A stretch of 37,325 nucleotides of DNA from a virus (IMGVR_UViG_3300018428_006193:1-37325), one strand, 5' to 3'; numbered from the stretch's first letter, positions 3,187 to 33,814 are shown. A program made the numbers and translations. The notes: a model not told the origin generated them from the sequence alone.

Positions 3187-3353
3187 TAGATGGTCCAGTC
3201 TTTCAACTGTTGCTTGGTTGGTTTGTGTGCTTTCACTTTTTCTACTTTGCCACCCTTTTCAAGAAACTTCTTCATCTTCTCGTCAAGTTCTCTCTGTTTC
3301 TCCTGTGGAGTTTTTTCGATTTCTCCTGCTAGGTAAGGTCTATTGATTGCCAT
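3186..3353 (-). CDS. Small charged protein, 55 residues
   Basis: A short gene encoding MAINRPYLAGEIEKTP followed by a Lys/Glu-rich helical stretch and KPTKQQLKDWTI. It overlaps the C-terminal codons of the upstream nucleotidyltransferase gene by 14 bases and its TAG stop forms a TAGTG overlap with the next start. These tight junctions, and the otherwise empty 150 bases, support it as real. The segment EKMKKFLEKGGKVEKVK has the look of a basic amphipathic helix. No function can be assigned. Confidence 0.6.
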   Translation of the reverse strand: MAINRPYLAGEIEKTPQEKQRELDEKMKKFLEKGGKVEKVKAHKPTKQQLKDWTI

Positions 3354-4518
3354 ATGTCTCTCCGTATTTGTTCAGTTCTGATTGTACTTTTATTATACTA
3401 TCTTTGTTGGCCTGATACAAGATGCCAAATCCGCCTTTTGCTGTCCATCTGTCTATGTTCACGGGCCTGTCATCGATAAGGATGTTGGGAGTTCCATCTT
3501 TTTGCTTGGCCCATTTCTCTTTACGTCCTGACACTATGACTTCGTCTGGTTTTTCGATATTTTTGGATATCCATATTTTTTTCTGCGTGGCAGAATTTTC
3601 ATGGTCACCTATCAAGGGTGATGTAAGAATAGAAAACTTGCCGCCTGTGGCAGACTTTATCAATGCTATCAATTGATCCGCTGTTGGAAACTTAGGCAGG
3701 GTCGCGAAAAAATCTGAACCAACTATCCTGTTTATCACTTCCTGTTTTAGTTCTCCTTTGCTTTTTACCGATGTTAGTTCTTTCCAGTGTTTGACTCCAA
3801 ACATCTTTTCCACACCGCCAAAGAAGTCAGCAATGACTCCGTCCATATCTAGATACACGACAGGTTTTGTTTTTGCTTCCATATCGTCCTCATTATACAA
3901 CTTATCGTTGTTGACCGCAACCTTTGTTCCAATCCTTGATTGAAGTGTGCTGTAGAGTTCTTTACCATCATTGCCACCCAGGATTATCTTTAAAAATTGT
4001 TCTTCGTCATTGTTAGACACTAATTCTCTGGCCTTCGATGCCGATGCTCCGGAAATACCATCTGCATCCGGATCTCTTTCACCAGCACTGGCAACTTCTA
4101 TGGTGTCGAACTTGTATAATTCGTTGCCGGCCTTGTCTGGTTTACCATTGTAATTGTTAAGAAGTTTTTTGAATTCTGCCACTCGGTCTGAACCTGCCAC
4201 CATTACCACTTTGGTTCTTCCTTCTGCCTGAATCTTCTGCAGGGCCTGTATTATGGTTTTGACTTCGTCGTGTCCTATGTCAAGGTCAGGATAAAACTTT
4301 TTTATATAGTCTTGTTTTTCTGTAAAACTTAATGGGTCTGTTTTGTTATTTTGTTTGTGTGAAAGAAATATATATCCCTTGCCATCAAATTTTTGTGCTA
4401 ACGTCTGAACTTTGTTCAAAAGTTTTTGATGTCCAATAGTTGGAGGATTGAAACGACCAAAGGCAAAAACTGCGACTGACCGATTGTCTTCCTTAAGAAA
4501 TAGTTCCTTGAGCAACAT
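3340..4518 (-). CDS. Nucleotidyltransferase-HAD phosphatase fusion with capsid tag
   Basis: A 392-residue two-domain protein. Residues about 14-190 form a cytidylyltransferase-like/NMN adenylyltransferase fold: FGRFNPPTIGH contains the (H/T)xGH-type nucleotide-binding motif, and GASASKARELV resembles the second nucleotide-binding motif. Residues about 218-392 form a HAD-type 5'-nucleotidase: VVYLDMDGVIADFF (nucleophile Asp and acid Asp), SILTSPL, and ILIDDRPVNIDRW (metal-binding Asp pair). The N-terminus MLLKELFLKED has L-K-E at 8-10, as in the neighbouring tagged proteins. The pairing suggests nucleotide or NAD metabolism, but the substrates are not evident. The start overlaps the upstream gene by 26 bases. 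Confidence 0.8.
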   Translation of the reverse strand: MLLKELFLKEDNRSVAVFAFGRFNPPTIGHQKLLNKVQTLAQKFDGKGYIFLSHKQNNKTDPLSFTEKQDYIKKFYPDLDIGHDEVKTIIQALQKIQAEGRTKVVMVAGSDRVAEFKKLLNNYNGKPDKAGNELYKFDTIEVASAGERDPDADGISGASASKARELVSNNDEEQFLKIILGGNDGKELYSTLQSRIGTKVAVNNDKLYNEDDMEAKTKPVVYLDMDGVIADFFGGVEKMFGVKHWKELTSVKSKGELKQEVINRIVGSDFFATLPKFPTADQLIALIKSATGGKFSILTSPLIGDHENSATQKKIWISKNIEKPDEVIVSGRKEKWAKQKDGTPNILIDDRPVNIDRWTAKGGFGILYQANKDSIIKVQSELNKYGETYGNQ

Positions 4519-5941: not shown

Positions 5942-6117
5942 TCAAATTCCAGTCCTGATTTGTTTCCTATATATGGTCTATTTAAATCTTCTCGGACTAG
6001 GTCTATGGTAATCATGGTTCCTTCGAGAACAACCTTTAAGTGTTTGTCTGTTTTTGACAGCACTTCGGCCATCTTGGTTTTTTCATTGTTGGTGCATATT
6101 ATTTCTATTTTTTCCAT
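5923..6117 (-). CDS. Small hypothetical protein, 64 residues
   Basis: A compact protein beginning MEKIEIICTNNEKTKMAEV with alternating hydrophobic and charged residues that suggest a small beta-barrel (KHLKVVLEGTMITIDLV). It overlaps the subtilisin gene by 13 bases and the next gene by 19, so it is translationally embedded. The family is not recognised. The strand pattern would fit an Sm-like or SH3-like small barrel, but this is a weak guess. Confidence 0.6.
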   Translation of the reverse strand: MEKIEIICTNNEKTKMAEVLSKTDKHLKVVLEGTMITIDLVREDLNRPYIGNKSGLEFEWLPRN

Positions 6118-9100
6118 TTTGGATCATCCTTGTCTATTGGCACAAACATATCTGTTTTTAGATCGTATACAAGTCCGTGTTGAGTTGCCGGGTCACTGTT
6201 TGATTGACCAAACATTAGTTTTTGGTGCTGTGCTGTCAACACCTCTTTGCCGTTTTTGTCCTTGGTATAACACTTGGGATTCTTCATCCATAAAAACTTA
6301 CAACTGCCCCAGAACTTTTTGACATAGTTCATTCCTAGGTTCACTCCGTCCTTGCCCGACTGTCCTGCTATGTCCTGTCTGTATTCTGCTGTGAAGTTGA
6401 ACGAGGCATCGGTCTCGTGTTCAGGCGTGTGATTGTAGAAAAAGCCTATGTTCTTTTCTTTAGTGGTCTGTGTAAGGTCACTTTTTATGTTTGTGTAGTT
6501 TATGGTTCCGTCTAAATTCACGCTCTCGGCTACTTCCAGGTCCATCGTTCCCGATGTTATGTGACTTGGAAGTGAGAACGACCAACCGAGAGTATTGTGC
6601 TTATCTTTGTGTATTTCATAAGCCAATCTGTATGATTCTGTTTCAACGTCTGAGAATGATTTGATCAGGCTTCCATCCACTGTGTTCACATCTGTTTTAC
6701 CTCTAGAATAATCCAGGCTTATCACATTATTGCCCAATTGGTACTCTACTCCTAGTTGTCCAAAGTTTGTGGTATTATTATCGCCCACGGCAAGTACACC
6801 GTCTGACTCATTGCCCAACCAGGTCTCCTGTTCGCTCATTTGTCCGATGTTGGTTTTCAATTTCAATTTGTCATTCAAGAAAAAGAAGTTTTTACCAACA
6901 TTAGAAGTCCAGTCACCATTTCCGCTTTCCCCTGTGAATAGACCAAAATTCATAAATCCTAGATCGTACTGTCCTCCTTGGGTGTAAGAGCCATACATCT
7001 GATTCACTGGCAGATATGTGTATCCGTTCATTAGTTGGCTGACGTCACTGACTTTTCTTTTGTCCTTGACCACGAATGTCTCTCCAAGATTGATGTAGTA
7101 ATCTCTGTCATAGTCGTCTAGCACCATAATTTTTAGATTTGCCAAACTTGACGGCAATGCTGTACCTGTAGAGTAATATGTGTTGTTCAAACCTACAGTT
7201 GGATTGTCTACCCTGCCCGAGGTTGGTATTCCTACAGCACCTTGGGGTTTTGTAGCCTCATTGAGATCAAGTAGACCTTGTCCGTGAATGTTCACATCAT
7301 AACCCGTGAGGTTCTTGTCCGCTGTGTTCATTACGAGTTTAACTAGATTTTCTCCCTTCATATGTGGCCACATCTGATGTAGCACACCAAATGCTCCAGT
7401 AACGTGCGGAGCCGCCATCGATGTACCACTGGCTTTCATATAATCTGTGTTACCTAGAGTTGTTGGAACCGCTGAGGTAATGTTGTCACCAGGAGCAAGT
7501 ATATAAAAGTCTGAGATTCTATAAGTGTCATTACAAGTATTGTTGACAGTGTTGATATCCAAACACACGTGACCTGCTTTGTTACCTGACACATTGGAAC
7601 CGTTCCAACTACCTACTATGACCATCTTGCCACCTAGTATTAAATTACCGTTGGCATCCTCTTCCACTGCCCATATGCCTGGATCACCTGCGTGTTCAAA
7701 TCCATAGTTACCTGCGGAATTGACCAAAATTATATCATTGTCTGTGGCCACCTTCCAGTATCTGGCATCACCGGCACCGTTTCCGATTATCTTGCTTGTG
7801 ATTTCACTGGCGTTGAAAGTACCGTCGGATAATTCTGTTACAGTAGAACCAGAACTGCTTGTGAAAAGTTGTGGAGTGTTGAAACTCATATTGACAGCAA
7901 CAATGTTCATACCCTCGCCACCATTGTCACTTGGAGATTTCAATTTTGCCATATCGTGTAGTGCCTGCTGAGCAGAACCTTTTGATATGCCCCCTCTGCC
8001 GTAGTAGTCAACGTTGGCTCCTACCAGTTCGGCATCGAACGCCACACCGTGTGTGCCTGTGCCATCATTCTTGCCTGCCATTATACTTGCGACGTGAGTT
8101 CCGTGGTATTGAGTGTTACCTCCGTCCTCGACAGTGTTCTCGTACCTAGTGTAATCTTTGTACCATTTGTATTTGCCATCTAGTTCTGGATGATCTGTTT
8201 GTTGCCAGGTGTCAATCACTCCCAGTACCGATCCCTTACCTGTCCATCCTCTGGCATAGGCATCAGCGGCATTGATAGTGTCCAGGCCACCACCTTTGTT
8301 GTATTCTGCAGTTTTGTGATCGGCAACAGTTGTGCTCATATTCGCTGTTGGAGTACCCAAATTGGTGTCATTGTCTGTGTACTCGTTTGAAACCAGTTGT
8401 GTGCTCAATTGTGTTCCAGCATCCGATGTCGTCACAACCTGCTCTGACGTGTCCTCGCTTTGAAGAATGTTCACAGATCTCTGTTCGGTTCTGACAACCA
8501 CAGTGGTCCAGTCGCCTGTGTCAACAGTGGCAGTGCCGTCTATGTTTTCTGTTGTGCCGTCCAGATAAGTTATTTTTTGCTTTGGAGTTGTTGTTGTTAT
8601 TGTTCTAGTATTTTTCTTAATGGTGTCTGTGTAGTGCCTTGTTCTATAGACAAGAGTAGTGATAGGTGTAGTCACAGTGGTGTCAACATATCTCGTGACA
8701 GTGACAGTTGAAGTATTGTTACCATGATCTGTGGTAGTAGTTACATCTCTATTGGCAGTGGTTGTGGTTGCCATACCTTCCTGTGTTTCTGTGGTTGTGT
8801 TTTCGGCATCTGTATAAGTGGTCACTGTGAACTCGTCAGATTCTTCAGTGACTGTGGTAACTACCGGATCGAGGTCAACTGTTGCTGTGACAGGATTATC
8901 ACCTTGTCTTGTTTCAGTTTCCGTTGTTACAGTTGGGTCTAATTCTGTTGTGGCACTTGAAATTTCTGTACAGGTCTGGGCACCATCAGAGTATGTGCCG
9001 TTCAACAGTGTTGTTCTCTCAAAGGTGCATCTTGTCGTGACAGTGGTTCTTAGATTTTTTGTAGTGGTAGTTTTTGTTCTTGTCTCGCTCCCACCACCAG

Positions 9101-9767
9101 CATAAACAGTTTCCCAATCTGAATAACTTACACTAGAAGTTCCAGTTGAGTCAGAATCAGATGTGCTATCATTTGATACTGTTTCTGTTTTCTTTACAAG
9201 TTTGGTTGATGCGTATGATGTTGCTGTTGTGTCCTTTTCTGTATTAATAATCTCTTGTGCTTTTTCTTCTTTTGCTATGGTGTTGTAATCGGCAAGTGTG
9301 ATCGTTCTGCCGTCGGCAACTTTCTGGATGATAGGTTTCACACTGTTTTTGAGATAAAGGAAAGCCGCATAGGCTTCTTTGTATGAGTCTGAATTGTATA
9401 TCGTATATCTATCGCCATCGCTTTGTTGTGCTATAAGTTCTTCTGTCTGTGTCCATAGACTGTCTGCCTGGTCTAACATTCCTATCAGTGTGTTAGCAGT
9501 TTCTATGTCTTCACTGGTAGGACCCGTAAGAATAGCAGAAAGAGAACTGTATTCTCCTCCAGATACCACAGAGTTGAAATTGTTAATAAGATTTGAATAA
9601 TTGGAAATGATGTTTTGTGAACCAGAAAGGTTACTTAGGTCTTCTTGGACAAAGTTAGAAACTGTGCCAACTGCACCGCCTCCACCTCCACCTCCACCAC
9701 CGCAGGCAGTAAGTGTAGTGGCCAAAACAGTGGCCAGTGCGGTATTTTTAAACTTTCCCCTAAGCAT
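6105..9767 (-). CDS. Lipoprotein-like subtilisin-family (S8) serine protease with Thr-rich stalk
   Basis: A 1220-residue secreted protease. The N-terminus has a signal peptide ending LTAC, a lipobox with Cys22, followed by nine glycines, as in bacterial surface lipoproteins. Residues about 180-430 are Thr/Val-rich and repetitive, like an extended stalk. The S8 catalytic domain spans about 505-840: Asp near 518 (LGVIDTW), His near 556 (YHGTHVAS) and Ser near 780 (SGTSMAAPHVTG), in normal order. Residues about 880-1150 show alternating strands like an autotransporter barrel, but the C-terminus continues into a charged tail ending DPKWKK, not the usual aromatic end. It lies downstream of its own promoter and looks host-derived. 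Confidence 0.85.
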   Translation of the reverse strand: MLRGKFKNTALATVLATTLTACGGGGGGGGGAVGTVSNFVQEDLSNLSGSQNIISNYSNLINNFNSVVSGGEYSSLSAILTGPTSEDIETANTLIGMLDQADSLWTQTEELIAQQSDGDRYTIYNSDSYKEAYAAFLYLKNSVKPIIQKVADGRTITLADYNTIAKEEKAQEIINTEKDTTATSYASTKLVKKTETVSNDSTSDSDSTGTSSVSYSDWETVYAGGGSETRTKTTTTKNLRTTVTTRCTFERTTLLNGTYSDGAQTCTEISSATTELDPTVTTETETRQGDNPVTATVDLDPVVTTVTEESDEFTVTTYTDAENTTTETQEGMATTTTANRDVTTTTDHGNNTSTVTVTRYVDTTVTTPITTLVYRTRHYTDTIKKNTRTITTTTPKQKITYLDGTTENIDGTATVDTGDWTTVVVRTEQRSVNILQSEDTSEQVVTTSDAGTQLSTQLVSNEYTDNDTNLGTPTANMSTTVADHKTAEYNKGGGLDTINAADAYARGWTGKGSVLGVIDTWQQTDHPELDGKYKWYKDYTRYENTVEDGGNTQYHGTHVASIMAGKNDGTGTHGVAFDAELVGANVDYYGRGGISKGSAQQALHDMAKLKSPSDNGGEGMNIVAVNMSFNTPQLFTSSSGSTVTELSDGTFNASEITSKIIGNGAGDARYWKVATDNDIILVNSAGNYGFEHAGDPGIWAVEEDANGNLILGGKMVIVGSWNGSNVSGNKAGHVCLDINTVNNTCNDTYRISDFYILAPGDNITSAVPTTLGNTDYMKASGTSMAAPHVTGAFGVLHQMWPHMKGENLVKLVMNTADKNLTGYDVNIHGQGLLDLNEATKPQGAVGIPTSGRVDNPTVGLNNTYYSTGTALPSSLANLKIMVLDDYDRDYYINLGETFVVKDKRKVSDVSQLMNGYTYLPVNQMYGSYTQGGQYDLGFMNFGLFTGESGNGDWTSNVGKNFFFLNDKLKLKTNIGQMSEQETWLGNESDGVLAVGDNNTTNFGQLGVEYQLGNNVISLDYSRGKTDVNTVDGSLIKSFSDVETESYRLAYEIHKDKHNTLGWSFSLPSHITSGTMDLEVAESVNLDGTINYTNIKSDLTQTTKEKNIGFFYNHTPEHETDASFNFTAEYRQDIAGQSGKDGVNLGMNYVKKFWGSCKFLWMKNPKCYTKDKNGKEVLTAQHQKLMFGQSNSDPATQHGLVYDLKTDMFVPIDKDDPKWKK

Positions 9768-9945
9768 TGAACACCCCCATCAGGTAAGCACCCAATAAAA
9801 AGAATAGGAAGTTTCTTGCCCACACGTAATAATTTTTGGTTATTTTGTACCCATTTTCTCTTAGACACATCAAATGGGCGTCCATAGATTCCACTGTCAC
9901 ATTCACGTCAACAGTTTCTATCTGTTCTAGTTCTCGATCGTTCAT
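9760..9945 (-). CDS. Small single-pass membrane protein
   Basis: A 61-residue protein with an acidic N-terminal half (MNDRELEQIETVDVNVTVES) and one C-terminal membrane segment (NFLFFLLGAYLMGVF). Its last 8 bases overlap the start of the subtilisin gene, so the two are probably cotranslated. The start lies only 6 bases after a good -10 hexamer, so the mRNA would be leaderless if this ATG is used; Met21 is an alternative start. It could anchor, regulate or give immunity to the protease, but this is inferred from pairing only. Confidence 0.6.
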   Translation of the reverse strand: MNDRELEQIETVDVNVTVESMDAHLMCLRENGYKITKNYYVWARNFLFFLLGAYLMGVFNA

Positions 9946-9951
9946 AGTCTA

Positions 9952-9979
9952 AGTATAACATAGAACGGAGTTACGTCAA
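9952..9979 (-). promoter_or_regulatory. Sigma70-type promoter for the subtilisin unit
   Basis: Read on the minus strand: TTGACG (9979-9974), a 16-base spacer, then TATACT (9957-9952), a near-consensus housekeeping promoter. The ATG of the small membrane protein follows 6 bases later. I found no -35/-10 pair of this quality elsewhere in the window; other units carry TAAATA boxes. This supports host-polymerase (early or constitutive) expression of the protease unit. Confidence 0.7.
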
Positions 9980-10030
9980 CCAAGTTGATCTTGCAGAAAA
10001 GTCAATGATTACAATGGTTTACAGAGGTGT

Positions 10031-10612
10031 TTAATTATTGTATAGGATTTTGCTCACGGATCCTGCGGTCATTCCAGTCATTTTTGCTCTTGTCCAAACA
10101 AAATTTCCTGTGAAATTTTTACCCGAAACAACTGTGCTTTGGTCTGTTGTGAATGTTGTCCCCGAAACATCAAACCAATCGTCTTCAGTTGGCGTGGTCG
10201 CCAATGATGCCTGCATCTTGATCGAACCTGTACAGGTGCTGTCAACGTGGTATGCCACTGTATGCACTCCATCCGTTTGTGAATAATAGCCATCACCTTT
10301 CTGTTTTGGCGTTACAAATCCAACGTGATCAATGACTGTGTTTGTTGAACCATCTGATGTTTCTGCTGTGACCACTTCTTCGACCACTATGCTGTATCCA
10401 TCTGACGCGACACTTTTCACTGTGAAAGTGGAGTTGTTGCTTGTGGTGCCAGTGACAGAAACAAGGTCGTATTGTGCGAGATTGGCCAGAGAAGTAGAGG
10501 TAGTAACTATCTTGTAAACTCCCGAAGTCGCGGTGAAACTTGCTCCCTCTGTTACAGTGATGTTCGCTTTGTGCGACTTTGATGCCGCTATAGTTGTGCT
10601 TGTCTGTGCCAT
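10031..10612 (-). CDS. Putative virion protein, Thr/Ser-rich beta structure
   Basis: A 193-residue protein beginning MAQTSTTIAASKSHKANITV, rich in Thr, Ser, Val and Gly, with regular beta-strand periodicity and no signal peptide. The C-terminal half (DDWFDVSGTTFTTDQSTVVSG) resembles the jelly-roll-like domains of phage tail or head-decoration proteins. No catalytic motif is visible. A GATAAATA box ends 5 bases before its ATG. It is assigned as structural from composition and late-type promoter; the exact role is unknown. Confidence 0.6.
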   Translation of the reverse strand: MAQTSTTIAASKSHKANITVTEGASFTATSGVYKIVTTSTSLANLAQYDLVSVTGTTSNNSTFTVKSVASDGYSIVVEEVVTAETSDGSTNTVIDHVGFVTPKQKGDGYYSQTDGVHTVAYHVDSTCTGSIKMQASLATTPTEDDWFDVSGTTFTTDQSTVVSGKNFTGNFVWTRAKMTGMTAGSVSKILYNN

Positions 10613-16079: not shown

Positions 16080-16124
16080 TTAAAATATTTTACACTAGAT
16101 GTGGCGTTTGTCAACGCCTGGTAA

Positions 16125-18172: not shown

Positions 18173-18638
18173 ATGGTACATACGCCGGGTTGGCCAGACT
18201 TGGGCACTCCGGGTTTATCTCCGACTTCTTGGTTGCTTTCAATTCTTCTTCTGTGTGTTCGGCACCTGAAGCCAGTTCCACACACCTCGCGGCGTTGTCC
18301 GCACCCTTGTTGATGATCCTCTCCACGGCCCCAGTCCTGTCTATGGCCAGTTTGCCTATGTCTCGTTTGCCTTTGTTGAAACGTTTATCTAGGTCATCGA
18401 GATCTTTTTTGAATGTCATAACCAATGCGTTTAATTTCTTGTTGCTCTCTAGTATGGCGTTAAAATCCTGTTTCTGTTGTTCCAACAGTTTGGCCTGTGA
18501 CTCTATGCCTTTTTCAAGTTCTATCTGGTTGGCTTTGAGTGTGGCGTTGTCTGCTCTCAGTTTGAAAATATAGGTCGCACCACCGGCAAGTCCTGTAAGC
18601 ATTATAATGATCATTACCATTCTTATAGATGAAAACAT
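18165..18638 (-). CDS. Putative i-spanin (Rz-like)
   Basis: A 157-residue protein with an N-terminal membrane anchor (about 7-24, MVMIIIMLTGLAGGATYI) and a long coiled coil (about 28-115, rich in Lys, Glu, Leu and Gln). The C-terminus ends NPECPSLANPAYVPYE. This is the usual layout of an inner-membrane spanin subunit. It overlaps the downstream lipoprotein gene, which would be its partner. An AATAAATA box ends 5 bases before the ATG and no Shine-Dalgarno sequence is present. Confidence 0.7.
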   Translation of the reverse strand: MFSSIRMVMIIIMLTGLAGGATYIFKLRADNATLKANQIELEKGIESQAKLLEQQKQDFNAILESNKKLNALVMTFKKDLDDLDKRFNKGKRDIGKLAIDRTGAVERIINKGADNAARCVELASGAEHTEEELKATKKSEINPECPSLANPAYVPYE

Positions 18639-18683: not shown

Positions 18684-19568
18684 ATGAAATATTTGATTAC
18701 TGGTTCGGCAGGCTTTATTGGAAAAAATCTTGTCAAAAAACTTTTGAAGAACAATGATATTGTTTACAGTATTGATCGTCAAAGCATTGGGTTCAAGCAC
18801 AAACGCCTCAAACACAAGACCTGCGATATAACCAAACAAAAAATTTTTCCCAAAGTAGATGTAGTTTTTCATTTAGCCGCTTTCAATGGTACGAAATTTT
18901 TCTATGAGAAACCGCTGGATGTTGTCAATGACAATTTCAACTCCACACTCAACCTTGTAAATTTTTACAGGAAAAACAAGTGCAGACTTTTTGTGTATGC
19001 GGGTAGTCCCGAATCTATAGCAGGAACCACAGATTATTTCAAAATGCCTTTACCAAGTAAAGAAAACTATCCTGTTGTAATAGAGGACGTGCAGAACCCT
19101 AGATGGAGTTATGCTACCAGCAAGGCTCTATCAGAACTCACAGTGGCCAACTCGGGTATAAAATACTGCATCCTCAGATATCATAATGTATATGGCCCGG
19201 GACAAAAAGATCATTTTATTCCGGATTTTATTTCAAGATGTAAAAAAGGGCAGTATATTCTAAATGGATTTGACAACACAAGATCATTTATGTACATCGA
19301 CGACGCGGTTGAAGCCACTGAGATGATAATAAAAAATAAAAAATGCGTCAATCAAATTATCAATGTGGGCAATGATAATGAAATAAAAATAATAGAAGTG
19401 GCCAAACTGATTTTGAAAATGTTAGGAAAAAAAGTTAAAATTAAATTAATGCCTGCCCCCAAAGGCAGTGTAAAAAGGCGTAGACCAGACCTAACAAAAT
19501 TACGTGATGTTTTCAAATACCAAAGCAAGATAGGCATCGAGCAGGGACTCAGAGAGGTGTGTAGATGA
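18684..19568 (+). CDS. NAD-dependent nucleotide-sugar epimerase/dehydratase
   Basis: A 294-residue extended short-chain dehydrogenase. The NAD-binding Rossmann motif TGSAGFIG is at 6-13, DVVFHLAA follows, and the catalytic Tyr-x3-Lys is SYATSK (Tyr about 143, Lys about 147). RYHNVYGPGQ is the conserved sugar-nucleotide contact of UDP-glucose 4-epimerase/GDP-mannose 4,6-dehydratase relatives. It is likely to convert a nucleotide sugar for glycan synthesis, but which sugar cannot be said. It is the first gene of a plus-strand trio, divergent from the spanins, and its stop overlaps the next start as ATGA. Confidence 0.88.
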   Translation: MKYLITGSAGFIGKNLVKKLLKNNDIVYSIDRQSIGFKHKRLKHKTCDITKQKIFPKVDVVFHLAAFNGTKFFYEKPLDVVNDNFNSTLNLVNFYRKNKCRLFVYAGSPESIAGTTDYFKMPLPSKENYPVVIEDVQNPRWSYATSKALSELTVANSGIKYCILRYHNVYGPGQKDHFIPDFISRCKKGQYILNGFDNTRSFMYIDDAVEATEMIIKNKKCVNQIINVGNDNEIKIIEVAKLILKMLGKKVKIKLMPAPKGSVKRRRPDLTKLRDVFKYQSKIGIEQGLREVCR

Positions 19569-20365
19569 AAATAGGTATCATAGGTTTAGGAGTCGTAGGA
19601 AACGCAAACAGCATAGGATTCAAGTGTTTGGGTCATGAAGTTTTGGGTTACGATCTTAATACAAAAAATTCTTTCGATGATTTACTCAAGACAGAGATGC
19701 TGTTCTTGTGCTTACCCACTGATCCAAAAAACGGAAAAGATTGTTTTACTGCTGACATAGAAGGATATCTTAAAAAATTGTCTGACAAAAATTATGTAGG
19801 TATTGTGGTTATAAGGTCAACAGTATATCCAGGTTTTACACAAAGAATGATAGAACATTATACTAATCTAAAAATATGCAACAGTCCTGAATTCCTAAAA
19901 GAGCGTTCTTCGGTTGATGACTTTATACATAATCATAATCTTTTGATAGTTGGCACTAACGACAAATGGATGTATAACAAAGTCGTTGACGCTCACGGAC
20001 ATTATCCAAAAAACACAAACCAAGTAATGCCTGTCGAAAGCGAAATTTTAAAATATTATGCTAACACTTTTGCAGGCCTCAGAGTAGTTTTCGCCAATGT
20101 GTTTTATGAACTATGTAAAAAAATGGATGCCAACTACACCGAAATCAAAAAATCTTATGTGACCACTAAGAACACCACAGATTTTTATCTAGATGTGAAC
20201 AAAGACCTAAGAGGATATGCAGGAACCTGCCTGCCAAAAGATATAAATTTCATTGCTAAATTCCTTAAAGACCAAGGTCTGGATTTCAATTTGATAGATA
20301 GTATCATAAACGATAATGACAAATTTGAACCTACCACTCCAAAAGGTATGAGGAAGAATAAATGA
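19565..20365 (+). CDS. UDP-glucose/UDP-ManNAc dehydrogenase-like protein, truncated
   Basis: A 266-residue member of the UDP-sugar 6-dehydrogenase family, which oxidises C6 of a UDP-sugar using two NAD+. It has the Rossmann motif GIIGLGVVGNA (3-13), VVIRSTVYPG, NSPEFLKERS and the catalytic loop GYAGTCLPKD with its Cys near 222. Family members are about 390-450 residues; this one ends soon after the catalytic loop and so lacks the C-terminal UDP-binding domain. It may therefore act as a reduced enzyme, or need a partner. It is coupled on both sides by ATGA overlaps. Confidence 0.85.
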   Translation: MKIGIIGLGVVGNANSIGFKCLGHEVLGYDLNTKNSFDDLLKTEMLFLCLPTDPKNGKDCFTADIEGYLKKLSDKNYVGIVVIRSTVYPGFTQRMIEHYTNLKICNSPEFLKERSSVDDFIHNHNLLIVGTNDKWMYNKVVDAHGHYPKNTNQVMPVESEILKYYANTFAGLRVVFANVFYELCKKMDANYTEIKKSYVTTKNTTDFYLDVNKDLRGYAGTCLPKDINFIAKFLKDQGLDFNLIDSIINDNDKFEPTTPKGMRKNK

Positions 20366-20853
20366 TAATTCAAGGCAAGATTCCTGTGACGTGGAACACA
20401 GATGACTATGAAAATTCAAAGTACAGCAGTCATCCCAATCCCTACAGAGGATTCACAGCATCTAACACTGCCCAAAATAAAAAAATGAATTTGGATGTTC
20501 ATATCTGTTATGATGTTCACGAAAACATAAAAAAATGTGTAAATGGATTTGGTCTCAACAACACCGCAATACAATTACAAAAGTATCTACCGGGGGACTA
20601 CTTGCCATTTCATTCAGACACATATGCTACCTACAAAAAGCACTACAACATAGACAGTGATGAAAAAGTGGTTAGAATAATTGTTTTCCTTCATGACTCT
20701 TTGCCGGGACAACAATTATGGATAAAGGACAAAGTTTACACAGGTCTTGCAGGAGATTATTTTGGTTGGACAGATGACACACAACACATGGCCGCTAATT
20801 TAGGATCATCTGCTAGATATAATCTGCAGATCACAGGCACTGCTATTTTTTAA
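20362..20853 (+). CDS. 2OG-Fe(II) oxygenase, small
   Basis: A 163-residue dioxygenase-like protein. The iron triad is HSD at 84-86 and distal His142 (DDTQHMAAN); Arg152 is suited to bind the 2-oxoglutarate carboxylate. The strands GDYLPFHSDTY and VRIIVFLHDSLPGQQLW are typical of the double-stranded beta-helix core. It differs clearly from the other two oxygenases in the window. It is coupled by ATGA to the UDP-sugar dehydrogenase. It may modify a sugar, peptide or nucleotide; the neighbours suggest glycan chemistry. The gene ends by overlapping the stop of the opposing aminotransferase-like gene. Confidence 0.8.
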   Translation: MIIQGKIPVTWNTDDYENSKYSSHPNPYRGFTASNTAQNKKMNLDVHICYDVHENIKKCVNGFGLNNTAIQLQKYLPGDYLPFHSDTYATYKKHYNIDSDEKVVRIIVFLHDSLPGQQLWIKDKVYTGLAGDYFGWTDDTQHMAANLGSSARYNLQITGTAIF

Positions 20854-21436
20854 AAAGATTTATATTTCTGCAGTCGTAATAATTCACTTTGGTTGGTTCG
20901 TAACTGCCTTTTTCTTGATACTGTTTCAACAACTTACTGCAATTGATTGCGTGTTCTATTGGCATATTGTAATGAAAACCTAGACTGAAATGTTCCTGCT
21001 CACTAGTGCTCAAAGGCAACACTCTTCCATCATAGGACATTTTTTTAAGAGACTCGTACCATGACTTGTTGTCGGTTAGTATTGCTCCACCTCTTTTGTT
21101 GTCTACTGGTTTGCCATTGCCAAAACTGACACATTGTAGTTGTCCTGGTCTGTACATTTTGGGTTTGAGTAATCTTGCACTATCCCATATTGGTGTATCT
21201 TTAAGATTGTATTCACCTATCCATTCCTCACCAGTCAACTCGAAATCTATTCCTAATTTTAGATACAACATAGGCACACTTACATATGTGAACGCACTGC
21301 TGGATACCTTTTTTGGATTAATCAATCTAAGGCAAATCTCCAAGGCGTGTGTACAACAATCTGTAGTGATTGCGTATGTCGATCCTGTGAACTCGGCGAG
21401 TTCTTTTTCGAAATCGAATATGTGTTGATATGACAT
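20843..21436 (-). CDS. DegT/DnrJ/EryC1-type aminotransferase, very short
   Basis: A 197-residue relative of the PLP-dependent sugar aminotransferases. It begins FEKELAEFTGSTYAITTDCCTHAL (the helix and PLP-phosphate region), then IWDSARLL with Asp85 (PLP ring nitrogen) and SFGNGKPVDNKRGGAIL with Lys109 as the likely Schiff-base lysine. Full enzymes have about 370-400 residues. Here the large-domain segments are shortened and the C-terminal domain is missing. It is either a minimal aminotransferase or a decayed or partial one. The start immediately follows the endolysin stop (TAAATG). It is convergent with the sugar genes. Confidence 0.75.
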   Translation of the reverse strand: MSYQHIFDFEKELAEFTGSTYAITTDCCTHALEICLRLINPKKVSSSAFTYVSVPMLYLKLGIDFELTGEEWIGEYNLKDTPIWDSARLLKPKMYRPGQLQCVSFGNGKPVDNKRGGAILTDNKSWYESLKKMSYDGRVLPLSTSEQEHFSLGFHYNMPIEHAINCSKLLKQYQEKGSYEPTKVNYYDCRNINLFKK

Positions 21437-25687: not shown

Positions 25688-26665
25688 ATGTATTCAACAA
25701 AAACATTAGAACAAATTACCATTGAGCCAACCAGTTATTGTAATGCACGTTGTCCACAGTGTGACAGATTTGACGAAAAAAATAATTTGATAGTTCCATT
25801 GAAACATCTTGATATTAGCATTTTAAATAAAAATTTGCGACCGGAATTTTTTCCTAACTTAAAGCAAATAGATCTGGAGGGAAATTGTGGCGACGTTTTG
25901 AGTCATAAAAATCCCATGGGATTAGTTTATCTATACAGAGATGTGGGCAAACTTCGTATGGTAACAAATGGATCCATAAGGAACAAGGAATTTTTCAAAG
26001 ATCTGGCAACTTTCAAAAACCTCGAACTAGTTTTTAGCATAGATGGCCTGTTGGATACCAACCATCTATATAGACAAGAATGCGACTTTGAAAAGATATT
26101 AGACAATGCCAACACTTTTAATAGTGCTGGAGGTCACTCTACCTGGAAATTTATTGTGTTCAAACACAATGAACACCAAATAGATGAAGCAGAAAATCTT
26201 AGTAAAAAGATGGGATTTAAAAATTTTACAATACAGCACAGTGACAGGAGTTGGCACAATGGATGGAAGTGGCCTGTCTATAATAAAAACCAGTACCAAT
26301 TCGATTTAGAACCAAGCAGTAAATTTGATAAGGATTTATCAAGTGATCATCGACAACTTAATGAAAAGTTGACGCACATTGTTAGACAAAATAAAAAAAT
26401 CAATCACTGTCCAATGGCACAACAAAAGAAAATTTTTGTCGACCATAACGGATATGTGATTCCTTGCTGTATGCTCAGCAATGACCTTTGGAATGAAACA
26501 TACAACACAAAGTTCCTTAAGAAATACATCAAAGACCTAGACAGTGTAAGCCTATACAAAAACAGTGTGCAGGATATTTTTGAATCTGATTTCTATAGAA
26601 AAGATCTTTTACAAAGTTTCGTTAGTAAACCTATGCCAAAGTGTTTGCTTTATTGTGCTGTCTAG
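25688..26665 (+). CDS. Radical SAM/SPASM-type protein
   Basis: A 325-residue radical SAM enzyme. The 4Fe-4S-binding motif is CNARCPQC (Cys at about 18, 22 and 25), followed by a TIM-barrel-like body with EGNCGD and VTNGS. The C-terminal part has further cysteines, HCPMAQQKKIFVDHNGYVIPCC, which is the usual start of a SPASM auxiliary-cluster domain. SPASM proteins often modify peptides or sugars; the substrate here is not known. It is on the plus strand, and its TAG stop shares a CTAG with the stop of the GroES-like gene. Confidence 0.85.
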   Translation: MYSTKTLEQITIEPTSYCNARCPQCDRFDEKNNLIVPLKHLDISILNKNLRPEFFPNLKQIDLEGNCGDVLSHKNPMGLVYLYRDVGKLRMVTNGSIRNKEFFKDLATFKNLELVFSIDGLLDTNHLYRQECDFEKILDNANTFNSAGGHSTWKFIVFKHNEHQIDEAENLSKKMGFKNFTIQHSDRSWHNGWKWPVYNKNQYQFDLEPSSKFDKDLSSDHRQLNEKLTHIVRQNKKINHCPMAQQKKIFVDHNGYVIPCCMLSNDLWNETYNTKFLKKYIKDLDSVSLYKNSVQDIFESDFYRKDLLQSFVSKPMPKCLLYCAV

Positions 26666-27562: not shown

Positions 27563-28381
27563 TCATGCCAACAAGTGTTTGAATTTGTTGGTGTTGTTTT
27601 GAACATATTTTGGTAATTGCTCTAAATCACATTTTACCAAATCTGTCCCGGGATTGTCGTAATTGTATCTGCCGTCAAACAGATCTTTTCTCTTGATTAA
27701 TTTGTCTTTTATTTCTTCTATGGATAATTTTGTTTCTGGCCTGTAATTTATGAAAGACCAAACTTTTTTATAGATATCCGATTCTGGCAACACGTAAGAG
27801 AAATGCCATCCTCCTGGATCGACCAATTGTGTTGGCAACGACCGATAGTTGCCATAATCCATATGATGGTTTGTGTGCATACGCAATTCCTGGCAGTTGC
27901 CTAGTTTTCCAAATTTAATGGCTTTTGGATGCTTGTCCCATGGGGTGTAGGCAGGATTGATTAAATTTAATTTGCCTTGAAAACAAAGTTGTTTGAAAAT
28001 AAAGAGATCATTTTTGTAATCTAGATTATCTATGATTGGAATTTCGTCCACATCGCACAACAAAATGAGATCCTCTTGTCCTGCGTCTTCCAAACCTTTT
28101 TTAACCTGTTCTCTTAGATTGTATTCACGTTTACGGCCATCACTGTGATTCACTGCCCATTCTGGTATCTGGTAATCCTCACTGTCTAGTATTTTGAAAT
28201 ATCTTATCTTGTGCTGAAATTTTTTATAAGGTTCGAATAGGAAACCTTTGTAGTTGCCAGCAAAATCATGATCCGATTCTACTATGACAAAATAGTCGAC
28301 ATACTTGTCTAAAACTTCAAATCTTATTTCCAGTAGATCTTTTTCTAGGCCAGAGTACGTGACACAATCGTATGTTTTCAT
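27563..28381 (-). CDS. GT17-family glycosyltransferase
   Basis: A 272-residue glycosyltransferase of the GT17 type, the family of beta-1,4-N-acetylglucosaminyltransferases. It has VDYFVIVESDHDFAG near the N-terminus, a metal-binding DxD in LLCDVDEIP (Asp-Val-Asp about 110-112), and VDPGGWHFSYV, which is conserved in the family. No membrane segment or signal is present, so it acts in the cytoplasm, perhaps glycosylating virion proteins, DNA or a host glycan. It starts in an ATGA overlap with the DNA polymerase III-like fragment. Confidence 0.85.
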   Translation of the reverse strand: MKTYDCVTYSGLEKDLLEIRFEVLDKYVDYFVIVESDHDFAGNYKGFLFEPYKKFQHKIRYFKILDSEDYQIPEWAVNHSDGRKREYNLREQVKKGLEDAGQEDLILLCDVDEIPIIDNLDYKNDLFIFKQLCFQGKLNLINPAYTPWDKHPKAIKFGKLGNCQELRMHTNHHMDYGNYRSLPTQLVDPGGWHFSYVLPESDIYKKVWSFINYRPETKLSIEEIKDKLIKRKDLFDGRYNYDNPGTDLVKCDLEQLPKYVQNNTNKFKHLLA

Positions 28382-28902
28382 CTCAAGAATTCTTTATAAT
28401 CCAGGTCATAAAGCAAAGGATTTATCTTGTGTACTCCTATCAGGAAAAGACAGAAACTTGAAACACTACTGCCTCTACCAACACCCCACACTATATTTTT
28501 TTCTCTCAGCGTATCAACAAAATAAATCAGAAACTGTAATACCTTGATGAAGTTTTTTTGTCGGAACAACTTCATTTCATCTTTGACTCTTTGTGTTTCG
28601 GAGTCATCTCTGCATTTGTCCAACAACCATTCTTCAACATCTATTGTTTCATAGTGTGCCGGCATAAACCAATGTTCGCAGTTGGCTTTGTCAAAATCCT
28701 CCAACGAGATATGATTCTTGGGCACGGCTGATATCTCGGGCAGGTCTAGTTCTAGTTCTTTGAGTGCTTTGCTGTATTGTGTAACATCTTCAAGATGTAT
28801 GCCTGATATATCTATATCAGGATTGGCGTATATCTGTTCGATGATGTAGTCCTCAGAGAATACACAGTCGCCGTAATCATTTGTTTTTATCTTTTCCGCC
28901 AT
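28378..28902 (-). CDS. DNA polymerase III alpha (DnaE)-like fragment
   Basis: A 174-residue protein whose C-terminal 70 residues match the thumb-palm entry of bacterial DnaE. RVKDEMKLFRQKNFIKVLQF, IVWGVGRGSSVSSF and INPLLYDLDYKEFLR correspond to the DnaE region with the GPGRGSAAGS motif and the helix that follows. The protein ends just before the residues that would carry the catalytic aspartates, so it cannot be an active polymerase. The N-terminal 100 residues are acidic and unrecognised. It may have been adapted as a DNA- or replisome-binding protein. Confidence 0.7.
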   Translation of the reverse strand: MAEKIKTNDYGDCVFSEDYIIEQIYANPDIDISGIHLEDVTQYSKALKELELDLPEISAVPKNHISLEDFDKANCEHWFMPAHYETIDVEEWLLDKCRDDSETQRVKDEMKLFRQKNFIKVLQFLIYFVDTLREKNIVWGVGRGSSVSSFCLFLIGVHKINPLLYDLDYKEFLR

Positions 28903-31174: not shown

Positions 31175-33793
31175 TTATTCCTCTAATTTTCTTTTAAATG
31201 CTAGGTATTTATCACCTTTACGCTCCACCCTTATCTTAGATTCGGATGATGGTGCGTTAGTGAACACAATGCTTGTTTTTTTGCTAGATCCGTCGTGCTG
31301 TAATCTAAATTGTGGCTCGTAGTCCGCACTTCTTAGAGAACTATCTGTGCTTAGATACAAAGGCGTCAAATTGTTGTCTGCTGTGATTTGGTCCCCGTAT
31401 GTCAAAACCGTGGCATTTTCTCTTATCTTTATTTCTTCTTCATGCACTATCTCGTTCATTTCGAATGTTGTTGTTGATCCATCTGGTGATATCGTGCCTG
31501 TGTCGACTTTGTGTCCGCTAACCACATATCTGTCTATTTTGTAATCTATTTTTTTGAAATCTATGGATTTATCTAGCACTCGTCTTTTGACTATTTCCGA
31601 CTTGCCAGGTTTGCAGTATGCCAACACCACTGCCATTTTGTACCCAAGAGGTACTCCAGAATCGTCTTGGCTTGTTCTCATCCATAATGGTAAGTGATTG
31701 TATTCTTTTTGTCCTAGGCTTTTCATTCTGGATCTCATATTTGCCACAGCATTTGGGTATAATTTTTCAAATGTGCCGATGTCTGCTGACAAAGGATTAC
31801 TGTATCGTATTTTTGATCCGGAAATACTAAAACTCAATCCACTGTTTGTGGTCACGTTGTACACGTCATAATCTGCCGTGATCCTGGAAGCATCTGCCAG
31901 CGGACCTATGATCGGTTTTGTTACTGCATTTCTTAGATCCACAGATGTTGATATAGCCTCGCCGGCATTATTAACTAGTGGATCCTTCATTTCTATATAA
32001 ACTACCTCATATTTGGTTGCCGATCCTTCTTTCGCCACAGCGGTCTTTATGTCACCAAAGTAAAGGGTTTTGGGAGTATGGTTCTGCTCCATTTGTTGTT
32101 GTAGAGTTGTGATTGTCTGGTGTTCTAGCCCAGAGATCAACAACATTTCAGCACTTGTCTGCATTCCGAAATTGGGATCCTCTGGCCTGAAAATAAATTC
32201 TTCTTTGTTGATATTTGGATCCTGAGCGAGTTGATAAAAAGTATCTCTGTCGCTTAGGCTGTTTGCTTTGTTATTGATTAATCCTTGTGCGTACATACTT
32301 CCATATTCGACTCCGTAAGGAAGACTGACTTTCAATGTAAATTCTCTAGTGGTGGCAGTGCTTTGATATTGATCGCTGGCCCTGATTGTGAATGTGTATT
32401 CTCTGTCAAAACTCAAAGTGTTTGTATCAAATGTGATGGCATTTTGGTCCACGGTTGTGAACTCTGATAGGTCAACGGTTCCTATTATATTTCCTGCCCT
32501 GCTCAACGTCAGTCCAGTGGGCAATGAACCTGCTGTCACAGTGTATTCCAGTACTCGATTGGTTTCGGCCGCTTCTGCCTGTACAGACAACAGACTAGGT
32601 ATGCCTGCTGTGACTGTGCCTAGGTTTGCGGATGTTGTGAATTCAATACCTATTTCTATTTCTCCTACCACGGTCATGGTAAAAGTTCTTTCTCCATAGA
32701 CTGTGACATTTGGATACGGAGTTCTTGATGCTCTGATTGTAAAAGTGAAAGTTGTTTCTACAGCATCTTGTCTGCTCAGTGTGCCTGCTATCTCGCCTGT
32801 GTTTCCGTCAATACTCAGGCCTGATGGAAGACTGCCCGATACTATAGAATAGTTTAGGTCTCCCTGCAGTTTGTCGAAGTCTTCTACATCTATTTTGATA
32901 ACAACATTATTATCGTGTTTGAAAGTTCCCAGAGCAGAATCTGTAAGGAAGACAGGTCTCCTGTTTCCGCTCATGCTCATTACAAGAGAGTACCCATCGT
33001 GTATAGTTTGGTCCACCGTAATGACCGAATTGTCTACTCTAAAATAGTCTGCCGTGTAAACAAAAATATTGTTGACCTGCGTAACACTGCTGGTTCCGTC
33101 GGAAACCCTTACTACGAACTCAAAATTTTCTGACCTTGATTTAGTTCTGGCAGTTGGGTCGTATCCAACTGTGTCATAGGCGTAGACATTACTATATCCG
33201 CCGTACACGCCATAACGCTCGTCTTCGGTCAATTGTATGACCCCAGAGATCAAACCTGTGGAACTCATTGTGACACCTGGAGGTAGTTTACCTTTCACAA
33301 TGTCATATACCAGGGTCTGTCCTGCCGCTGTGTCGGTGTCAGTGGCAACAATCTGGTATTCTACATAACTTCCGTCAAGGATGACAATATCACGAGAAGT
33401 ATCTGCTGTCAGATCCGTTGCATCAGAGGTGATGTCTGTCCTGTCTGATGTTTTTAGACTGGTATCTGCGAAATCTAATTGTCCGCTGTCGGTACTGAAA
33501 CTAGGAACATCTGCACCCTGAATCTGCAGACTGAAATTTCTGTCGGCTATGACAGTTCCATCTGAAGCACGAATCACAAACTCGTACAGAGAACGTGTCG
33601 AGACTTCAAATGGAGTGCCCTGCAGTAAACCTGTGGAAGTAAGTTGTATACCGGGAGGTAGGGTTCCTGCGATGTGAGAATAAGTCAAACTGGTACTGTC
33701 TTGCGAGTTCGCTTCCAGTTGTTTGGAATAGAAGTCGCGTTCGTTGATCACACCCAAAGATCCAGATGTCGTAGACCAATTTACGTTTGCCAT
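31175..33793 (-). CDS. Large virion protein with Ig-like (He_PIG) repeats
   Basis: An 872-residue protein from the ATG at 33793, which has a GGGAGT Shine-Dalgarno and a perfect TATAAATA box 21 bases upstream; a TTG 18 bases upstream is rejected. At least four Ig-like repeats carry G(T/K/S)LPxG(L/I/V) followed by TG(L/E)(I/L)xG near residues 43, 168, 318 and 423. Such He_PIG repeats give adhesive or structural stalks. The C-terminal third (NHLPLWMRTSQDDSGVPLGY) resembles T4-like marine phage tail proteins. It is a likely tail or baseplate-associated fibre with possible host binding. Confidence 0.8.
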   Translation of the reverse strand: MANVNWSTTSGSLGVINERDFYSKQLEANSQDSTSLTYSHIAGTLPPGIQLTSTGLLQGTPFEVSTRSLYEFVIRASDGTVIADRNFSLQIQGADVPSFSTDSGQLDFADTSLKTSDRTDITSDATDLTADTSRDIVILDGSYVEYQIVATDTDTAAGQTLVYDIVKGKLPPGVTMSSTGLISGVIQLTEDERYGVYGGYSNVYAYDTVGYDPTARTKSRSENFEFVVRVSDGTSSVTQVNNIFVYTADYFRVDNSVITVDQTIHDGYSLVMSMSGNRRPVFLTDSALGTFKHDNNVVIKIDVEDFDKLQGDLNYSIVSGSLPSGLSIDGNTGEIAGTLSRQDAVETTFTFTIRASRTPYPNVTVYGERTFTMTVVGEIEIGIEFTTSANLGTVTAGIPSLLSVQAEAAETNRVLEYTVTAGSLPTGLTLSRAGNIIGTVDLSEFTTVDQNAITFDTNTLSFDREYTFTIRASDQYQSTATTREFTLKVSLPYGVEYGSMYAQGLINNKANSLSDRDTFYQLAQDPNINKEEFIFRPEDPNFGMQTSAEMLLISGLEHQTITTLQQQMEQNHTPKTLYFGDIKTAVAKEGSATKYEVVYIEMKDPLVNNAGEAISTSVDLRNAVTKPIIGPLADASRITADYDVYNVTTNSGLSFSISGSKIRYSNPLSADIGTFEKLYPNAVANMRSRMKSLGQKEYNHLPLWMRTSQDDSGVPLGYKMAVVLAYCKPGKSEIVKRRVLDKSIDFKKIDYKIDRYVVSGHKVDTGTISPDGSTTTFEMNEIVHEEEIKIRENATVLTYGDQITADNNLTPLYLSTDSSLRSADYEPQFRLQHDGSSKKTSIVFTNAPSSESKIRVERKGDKYLAFKRKLEE
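31206..31213 (-). promoter_or_regulatory. Late-promoter-like box GATAAATA
   Basis: Minus-strand GATAAATA inside the last codons of the Ig-repeat gene, 32 bases before the ATG at 31173, with the Shine-Dalgarno GAGGAAT between. Confidence 0.5.
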
Positions 33794-33814
33794 TGTTTGT
33801 CTTACTCCCAATGG

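Follow-up and report, generated by a model that had tools for sequence, protein, structure and literature searches.

A predicted lipidated, outer-membrane-anchored subtilase encoded by a clade of jumbo-type phages

Here we examine the locus of a large subtilisin-like protease (P0001) in a stretch of viral DNA of 37,325 nucleotides (IMGVR_UViG_3300018428_006193:1-37325), referred to in its full length as the window. The gene lies on the minus strand, as do the domains and the promoter described below; its open reading frame runs from an ATG at 9767 to 6105 and encodes 1220 amino acids. From the N- to the C-terminus, the protein comprises a lipoprotein signal, nine glycines, a 160-residue N-terminal part, a stalk, a peptidase S8 domain, a linker, a strand-rich C-terminal part, and a 68-residue tail. 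The open reading frame (6105..9767) and its profile matches point to a lipidated subtilase with an outer-membrane barrel. An earlier note, made from the sequence alone, had listed a 1220-residue protein with the lipobox LTAC, nine Gly, a Thr-rich stalk, and a complete Asp-His-Ser triad, and had proposed that it was a host-like surface protease carried as a moron. The list of parts is borne out by the open reading frame, the Pfam match (E 2e-30), and the invariance of the key residues; the proposed origin fares differently.

The N-terminus reads MLRGKFKNTALATVLATTLTAC-GGGGGGGGG. It holds a lipoprotein signal peptide with the lipobox LTA-C22 (9702..9767), in which the lipobox Cys is residue 22, followed by the nine-Gly linker (residues 23-31; 9675..9701). 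The protein thus has the signal peptide and Cys-ending lipobox that define a bacterial lipoprotein, and its lipidation is predicted on that basis. The lipobox is kept within the window clade and is found in at least 30 relatives; by inspection, every complete relative carries either a lipobox or a Sec signal. The Thr-rich stalk (residues ~191-480; 8328..9197) is far less constant. It is Thr-rich in the window and in the clade members L002-L004 and gone in L006 and L007, and in L060 K/E-rich repeats (ESKEEE...; L060:6500-6850) stand where it would be. Since its form depends in this way on the clade member, the stalk behaves as a spacer.

Pfam Peptidase_S8 matches residues 510-829 (7281..8240) with an E-value of 2e-30 and 106.6 bits, against a cut-off of 21.8. 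The catalytic residues D519 (8211-8213), H555 (8103-8105), N687 (7707-7709), and S783 (7419-7421) are all invariant, both among 23 diverse relatives and again among 57. A domain above the curated cut-off, with the Asp-His-Ser triad and the oxyanion Asn, places the protein in family S8 (subtilase). The Ssp autotransporter of Serratia marcescens (8e7f) is the closest PDB match of this domain both by sequence (5.6e-28) and by fold (3.3e-19). Ssp is a bacterial protein, its passenger differs from the phage protease, and it is not known to be lipidated.

The C-terminal part holds the predicted barrel (residues 930-1149; 6321..6980). AlphaFold models (57 sequences; pLDDT 81.6 and 79.6) place 12 strands there; between the S8 domain, which ends near residue 840, and the barrel, whose first strand is at residue 930, they show a low-confidence linker without a run of strands. 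Subtilisins dominated the matches of the full model in the PDB, so the barrel part was modelled alone. Its fold matches were almost solely outer-membrane barrels, and the top ones entirely so, with porins first and EstA and the NalP translocator lower. A model of the barrel together with the tail matched the phage protein A0A6J5TBB6 in BFVD (TM-score 0.60). The barrel-like C-terminal part noticed earlier is supported by the predicted strands and by fold matches to outer-membrane barrels, the latter at low TM-scores.

The end of the barrel differs between the window clade and its relatives. Among relatives outside the clade, 61 of 64 distinct members terminate in F or W, for example with the strand GVKLNLKF. 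Such a final aromatic residue is the hallmark of outer-membrane proteins that BAM assembles. In the alignment these relatives end at the window sequence VNLGMNYVKKF (residues 1142-1152; 6312..6344), which makes it a candidate internal beta-signal; across the clade its last position is F or L, and 57-69 extra residues follow. The canonical autotransporter C-terminus that the earlier note had thought missing is thus present inside the protein, with an extra tail beyond it. This tail (residues 1153-1220; 6108..6311) occurs in all 8 clade members and only in them. It carries two conserved cysteines (C1156 and C1166) and the motif HGLxYDxxxDxFxPI (HGLVYDLKTDMFVPI; 6135-6179), neither of which turned up in any other fetched sequence. 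It is a clade-specific addition and would lie on the periplasmic side.

Several points weigh against reading the protein as an autotransporter. The TM-scores of the barrel are low (~0.3), and porins rank above autotransporter translocators. The autotransporter translocator family PF03797 was matched in 0 of 57 members at a threshold of E 0.1, and the barrel profile, searched against PDB sequences, gave only matches at E ~0.4 to a papain-like protease, none of them real. The beta-signal of the window protein does not stand at the very C-terminus, since 68 residues come after it, and a tail downstream of such a signal is unusual. Subtilisin-like autotransporters of Group 15 consist of a protease of ~400 aa and then a beta-helix of ~200 aa ahead of the barrel (PMC9289746), a layout that the phage protease does not follow. 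Given the low TM-scores and the porins that outrank translocators, the barrel is supported as an outer-membrane barrel and not as a type Va translocator: support from the models is good for the former assignment and moderate for a barrel of autotransporter type. The protease appears to work like a subtilase autotransporter and is not a proven member of the classical type Va group.

A close comparison is with NalP of Neisseria and SphB1 of Bordetella, self-secreting, lipidated subtilases that cleave neighbouring surface proteins (PMC9977779; PMC9289746). The phage protease shares with them the lipobox, an S8 passenger, a C-terminal outer-membrane barrel (here a predicted one), and a beta-signal, and by this likeness it may share surface display as well. 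Unlike them, it has no PF03797 match and no beta-helix between the S8 domain and the barrel, its stalk precedes the S8 domain, it bears the extra C-terminal tail, and it is carried by a phage. We consider it likely, from sequence and structural models, that the protein is a subtilase anchored in the outer membrane, exported by Sec, lipidated at its Cys, and inserted through BAM by a 12-strand barrel, with the S8 domain held outside on a spacer. Of the surface protease on the host cell that the earlier note had envisaged, the lipidated, apparently surface-directed architecture and the intact catalytic site are supported, and the host-like character is not.

The gene is preceded by a conserved open reading frame of 61 amino acids (9760..9945, likewise on the minus strand), which encodes a conserved soluble N-terminal part and one C-terminal membrane segment, as the earlier mention of a small membrane protein had it. 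This reading frame ends in an 8-nt overlap with the start of the protease gene, which suggests that the two are translated in a coupled manner. No match to this protein was found among annotated phages; a role in exclusion or as a regulator is speculation. Upstream of it lies a sigma70-type promoter (9952..9979), with the -35 box TTGACG (9974-9979), a 16-nt spacer, and an extended -10 box, TG-TATACT (9952-9957); the two hexamers and the spacer are exactly those of the earlier note. Only 6 nt separate the -10 box from the ATG of the 61-aa gene at 9945; since the ATG begins 7 nt past the box, the transcript of the 61-aa gene and the protease is probably leaderless.

Counting such sites is of little help. 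The window holds 49 sigma70-type boxes against 42.6 expected, so that they are not rarer than chance would have them in AT-rich DNA; site number was set aside as evidence and conservation was used in its place. The blocks GTTGAC and TGTTATAnT, with the same spacing to the ATG, occur in all 8 distinct clade members (the window, L002, L003, L004, L006, L007, L058, and L060), a count that permits one substitution in the -10 box of L006. We judge the promoter to be real because its hexamers and its position at the ATG are conserved in all eight phages. An inverted repeat over the -35 box, TCAAC-TTG-GTTGA (9976..9988), is a possible operator; it is present also in L003, L004, L007, L058, and L060, and is not found in L002 or L006.

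The promoter is not alien to this phage. Sigma70-like boxes also sit at the ATG of the genes for DnaJ (start 16079), gp44 (25649), and GroES (27105), and for DnaJ five relatives show the same box-at-ATG arrangement as the window. The spanin gene (18638) and a virion-like gene at 10612 have TAAATA boxes in front of them, so the earlier contrast between this promoter and TAAATA boxes elsewhere holds for those two units and fails for DnaJ, gp44, and GroES. The protease unit thus falls into an early-type class with replication and chaperone genes. Early transcription from the start at 9945, as the earlier note had expected, is in keeping with the promoter type, which is conserved across the clade. 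That the protease is made early from a conserved promoter of host type, together with the 61-aa membrane protein, seems fairly likely from the sequence. As a separate observation, the boxes at 16087-16114 and upstream of 25649 and 27105 suggest that early transcripts without a leader form a class in this lineage of phages.

This timing bears on two other explanations. NalP and SphB1 are known to mature other surface proteins (PMC9289746), and the spanin genes of the window lie ~8 kb upstream of the protease; the phage enzyme might accordingly mature specific phage or host envelope proteins, or help to break open the envelope during lysis and release. We think this improbable, since the promoter of the protease is of the early type, as against the TAAATA box of the spanin gene at 18638, and distant relatives do not sit next to lysis genes. 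More improbable still is that the protein travels on the virion as a particle-associated protease or tail component. The adjoining gene (10031-10612) has weak matches to structural families of virions, and downstream of ClpA the related phages carry genes for tail fibres. That neighbour, however, has a late-type TAAATA box and the protease unit does not; a lipoprotein signal peptide, an outer-membrane barrel, and an early promoter are ill-suited to a part of the virion. The protease itself does not resemble any structural protein of virions, the kind of closest match by which the earlier note would have given up its reading.

The window appears to be a fragment of a large phage of marine type, a jumbo-type myovirus. 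Its ClpA shares 45% identity with the ClpA of Sinorhizobium phage Phosso and 42% with the ClpA of Agrobacterium phage Atu_ph07, the gene order DnaJ-(deformylase)-ClpA is the same as in related phages, and clade member L060 lies on a contig of 196 kb that also bears a TerL gene. The Pfam profiles Gp23 and Terminase_6N marked hardly any of the fragmentary contigs, and the PHROG TerL profile marked five large ones. The host is probably alphaproteobacterial, an assignment we infer from this kinship. Phosso and Atu_ph07 have no protease at this place. In all fetched clade members, which had themselves been found by searching with the protease, its neighbours stand in the same order.

The family as a whole is mainly viral. 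A protein-seeded scan of viral contigs found 39 loci, and a profile-seeded scan found 138 related stretches among 154 candidates; a genome scan with the same profile found three bacterial loci. Copies occur in 2 of 385 Alphaproteobacteria and in 4 of 61 genomes of one family. Both kinds of scan were limited by their search patterns, so these counts are lower bounds. No SAR11-specific relative turned up in the genome scans, in which SAR11 was not searched separately. In annotated phages, tblastn with the protease gave only weak S8 matches of Bacillus, Staphylococcus, and Pseudomonas phages, and hence no cultured close relative. PHROG 3677, a phage "protease" of length 1125, and A0A6J5TBB6, a "Peptidase S8/S53" of an uncultured Caudovirales phage, match in the S8 domain and very likely belong to the same wider family; both are annotated merely as protease or peptidase, with no reading as exported or autotransporter proteins, and the lipobox, stalk, and tail are features of the window clade.

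These data speak to the idea of a moron recently acquired from a bacterial surface protease. The earlier note would have taken bacterial nearest relatives and few phage homologues as support for transfer; the reverse was found. Lipidated S8 relatives are present in a few Alphaproteobacteria, where they lie beside mlaE/mlaD, and one gammaproteobacterial genome bin has a copy too. They are rare and only ~30% identical to the window protease. An unrooted tree built from 63 cores places them inside the phage diversity at two points, and the window clade forms a single group there (100/100), joined by a long stem. Synteny is fixed across the clade, the C-terminal tail is restricted to phages, the promoter type is common to DnaJ, gp44, and GroES, and the GC3 of the gene (0.40) matches that of its neighbours (0.30-0.49), so that no recent host transfer is visible. 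We regard such a recent gift from a host as not supported and very unlikely; the gene may have come from bacteria long ago, or may have passed between phages and bacteria one way or the other. The bacterial loci examined have ordinary chromosomal neighbours: L041 lies beside dTDP-rhamnose genes, and the alphaproteobacterial copies (L042:5600-8221; L043 likewise by homology) lie directly upstream of a lipid-transport operon of the mlaE/mlaD type.

In the S8 domain, the barrel, and the tail, dN is far below dS, with dS often saturated, and all three are thus maintained. When clade members are compared in pairs, protease identity does not correlate with ClpA identity (r 0.04, 28 pairs; window, L002-L007, L058, L060), whereas the identity of another neighbour does correlate with that of ClpA (r 0.74). 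This suggests that alleles have been exchanged or that the protease changes faster; the variable stalk may account for part of it.

Distant phage copies sit among genes of nucleotide and SAM metabolism (TK, MetK, exonuclease), not among virion genes. This setting, the intact subtilase of broad type, and the wide occurrence of the family in environmental viral contigs would fit a nutritional role, in which the displayed protease digests external or surface protein to supply a host that is poor in nutrients and only slowly infected with amino acids from outside. We hold this to be unlikely, although less so than a part in maturation or lysis: no gene for a peptide or amino-acid transporter was seen adjoining the protease, and the substrate would diffuse off. 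Around those distant copies, the window genes matched besides the protease were only sugar-nucleotide and aminotransferase genes (18684-21436) and one radical-SAM gene (25688-26665, in L013). The former stretch of the window holds epimerase, UDP-glucose dehydrogenase-like, and aminotransferase genes. Such a theme is linked to change of the host surface in jumbo phages (PMC7824862), and the jumbo-phage papers searched treat such change as a matter of sugars alone. Both this theme and the position of the distant copies away from virion genes speak also for the surface-directed reading favoured below.

Three further genes of the window deserve mention. A protein of 878 aa (31175-33811), in which four Ig (He_PIG) domains are putatively recognised, adjoins baseplate and tail-fibre connector genes, a fusion of nucleotidyltransferase and 5'-nucleotidase (NT5C) domains (3340-4518) is kept in the clade, and a 174-aa protein (28378-28902) matches a short DNA-polymerase family and is possibly a piece of a split polymerase.

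Taken together, we favour an explanation in which the phage alters the surface of the cell it infects. Early transcription from a promoter of host type would yield the protease along with the 61-aa protein; Sec would export the protease, C22 would then be lipidated, and the barrel would insert via BAM with its internal beta-signal. The S8 domain would be displayed outside the cell on its spacer, by analogy with NalP and SphB1, and would cut host surface proteins, so that rival phages could not adsorb, progeny would not be trapped on debris, or both. Early cutting of the surface by a phage most simply excludes competing phages or avoids re-adsorption. As a whole, we give this explanation a probability of roughly 0.45. 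Its specific use, in which the infected cell's own surface proteins are cut by a receptor-destroying enzyme, is put forward tentatively, since sequence evidence does not choose among substrates. The broadest form of the idea is more doubtful still: a lineage of surface proteases, widespread and mostly viral, that secrete themselves and bring about superinfection exclusion by stripping receptors or other surface proteins from the cell early in infection, and to which the jumbo clade added a disulfide-capable periplasmic tail.

Superinfection-exclusion lipoproteins such as T5 Llp and Cor are small, non-enzymatic, and receptor-blocking. The protein described here resembles them in being phage-encoded, apparently early, and directed to the outer membrane, with a proposed role against re-adsorption; it differs in being a large protease. 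The openly licensed literature that we searched gave nothing on point for phage-encoded autotransporters or surface subtilases, and a keyword search of three jumbo-phage papers (PMC7824862, PMC13282480, and PMC9123017) found no such subtilisin or autotransporter. Phage S8 proteins are already known by annotation, and a role in exported outer-membrane display was not found described in that literature.

If this explanation is true, phages carry outer-membrane secretion modules of their own and rebuild the exterior of their host with an enzyme during infection. A broad family of viral "proteases" would then be re-annotated as exported outer-membrane enzymes, and the question would arise of how BAM assembles a barrel that has an internal beta-signal and a tail beyond it. 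For environmental phages, it would provide a way of excluding superinfection or releasing progeny that can be tested directly.

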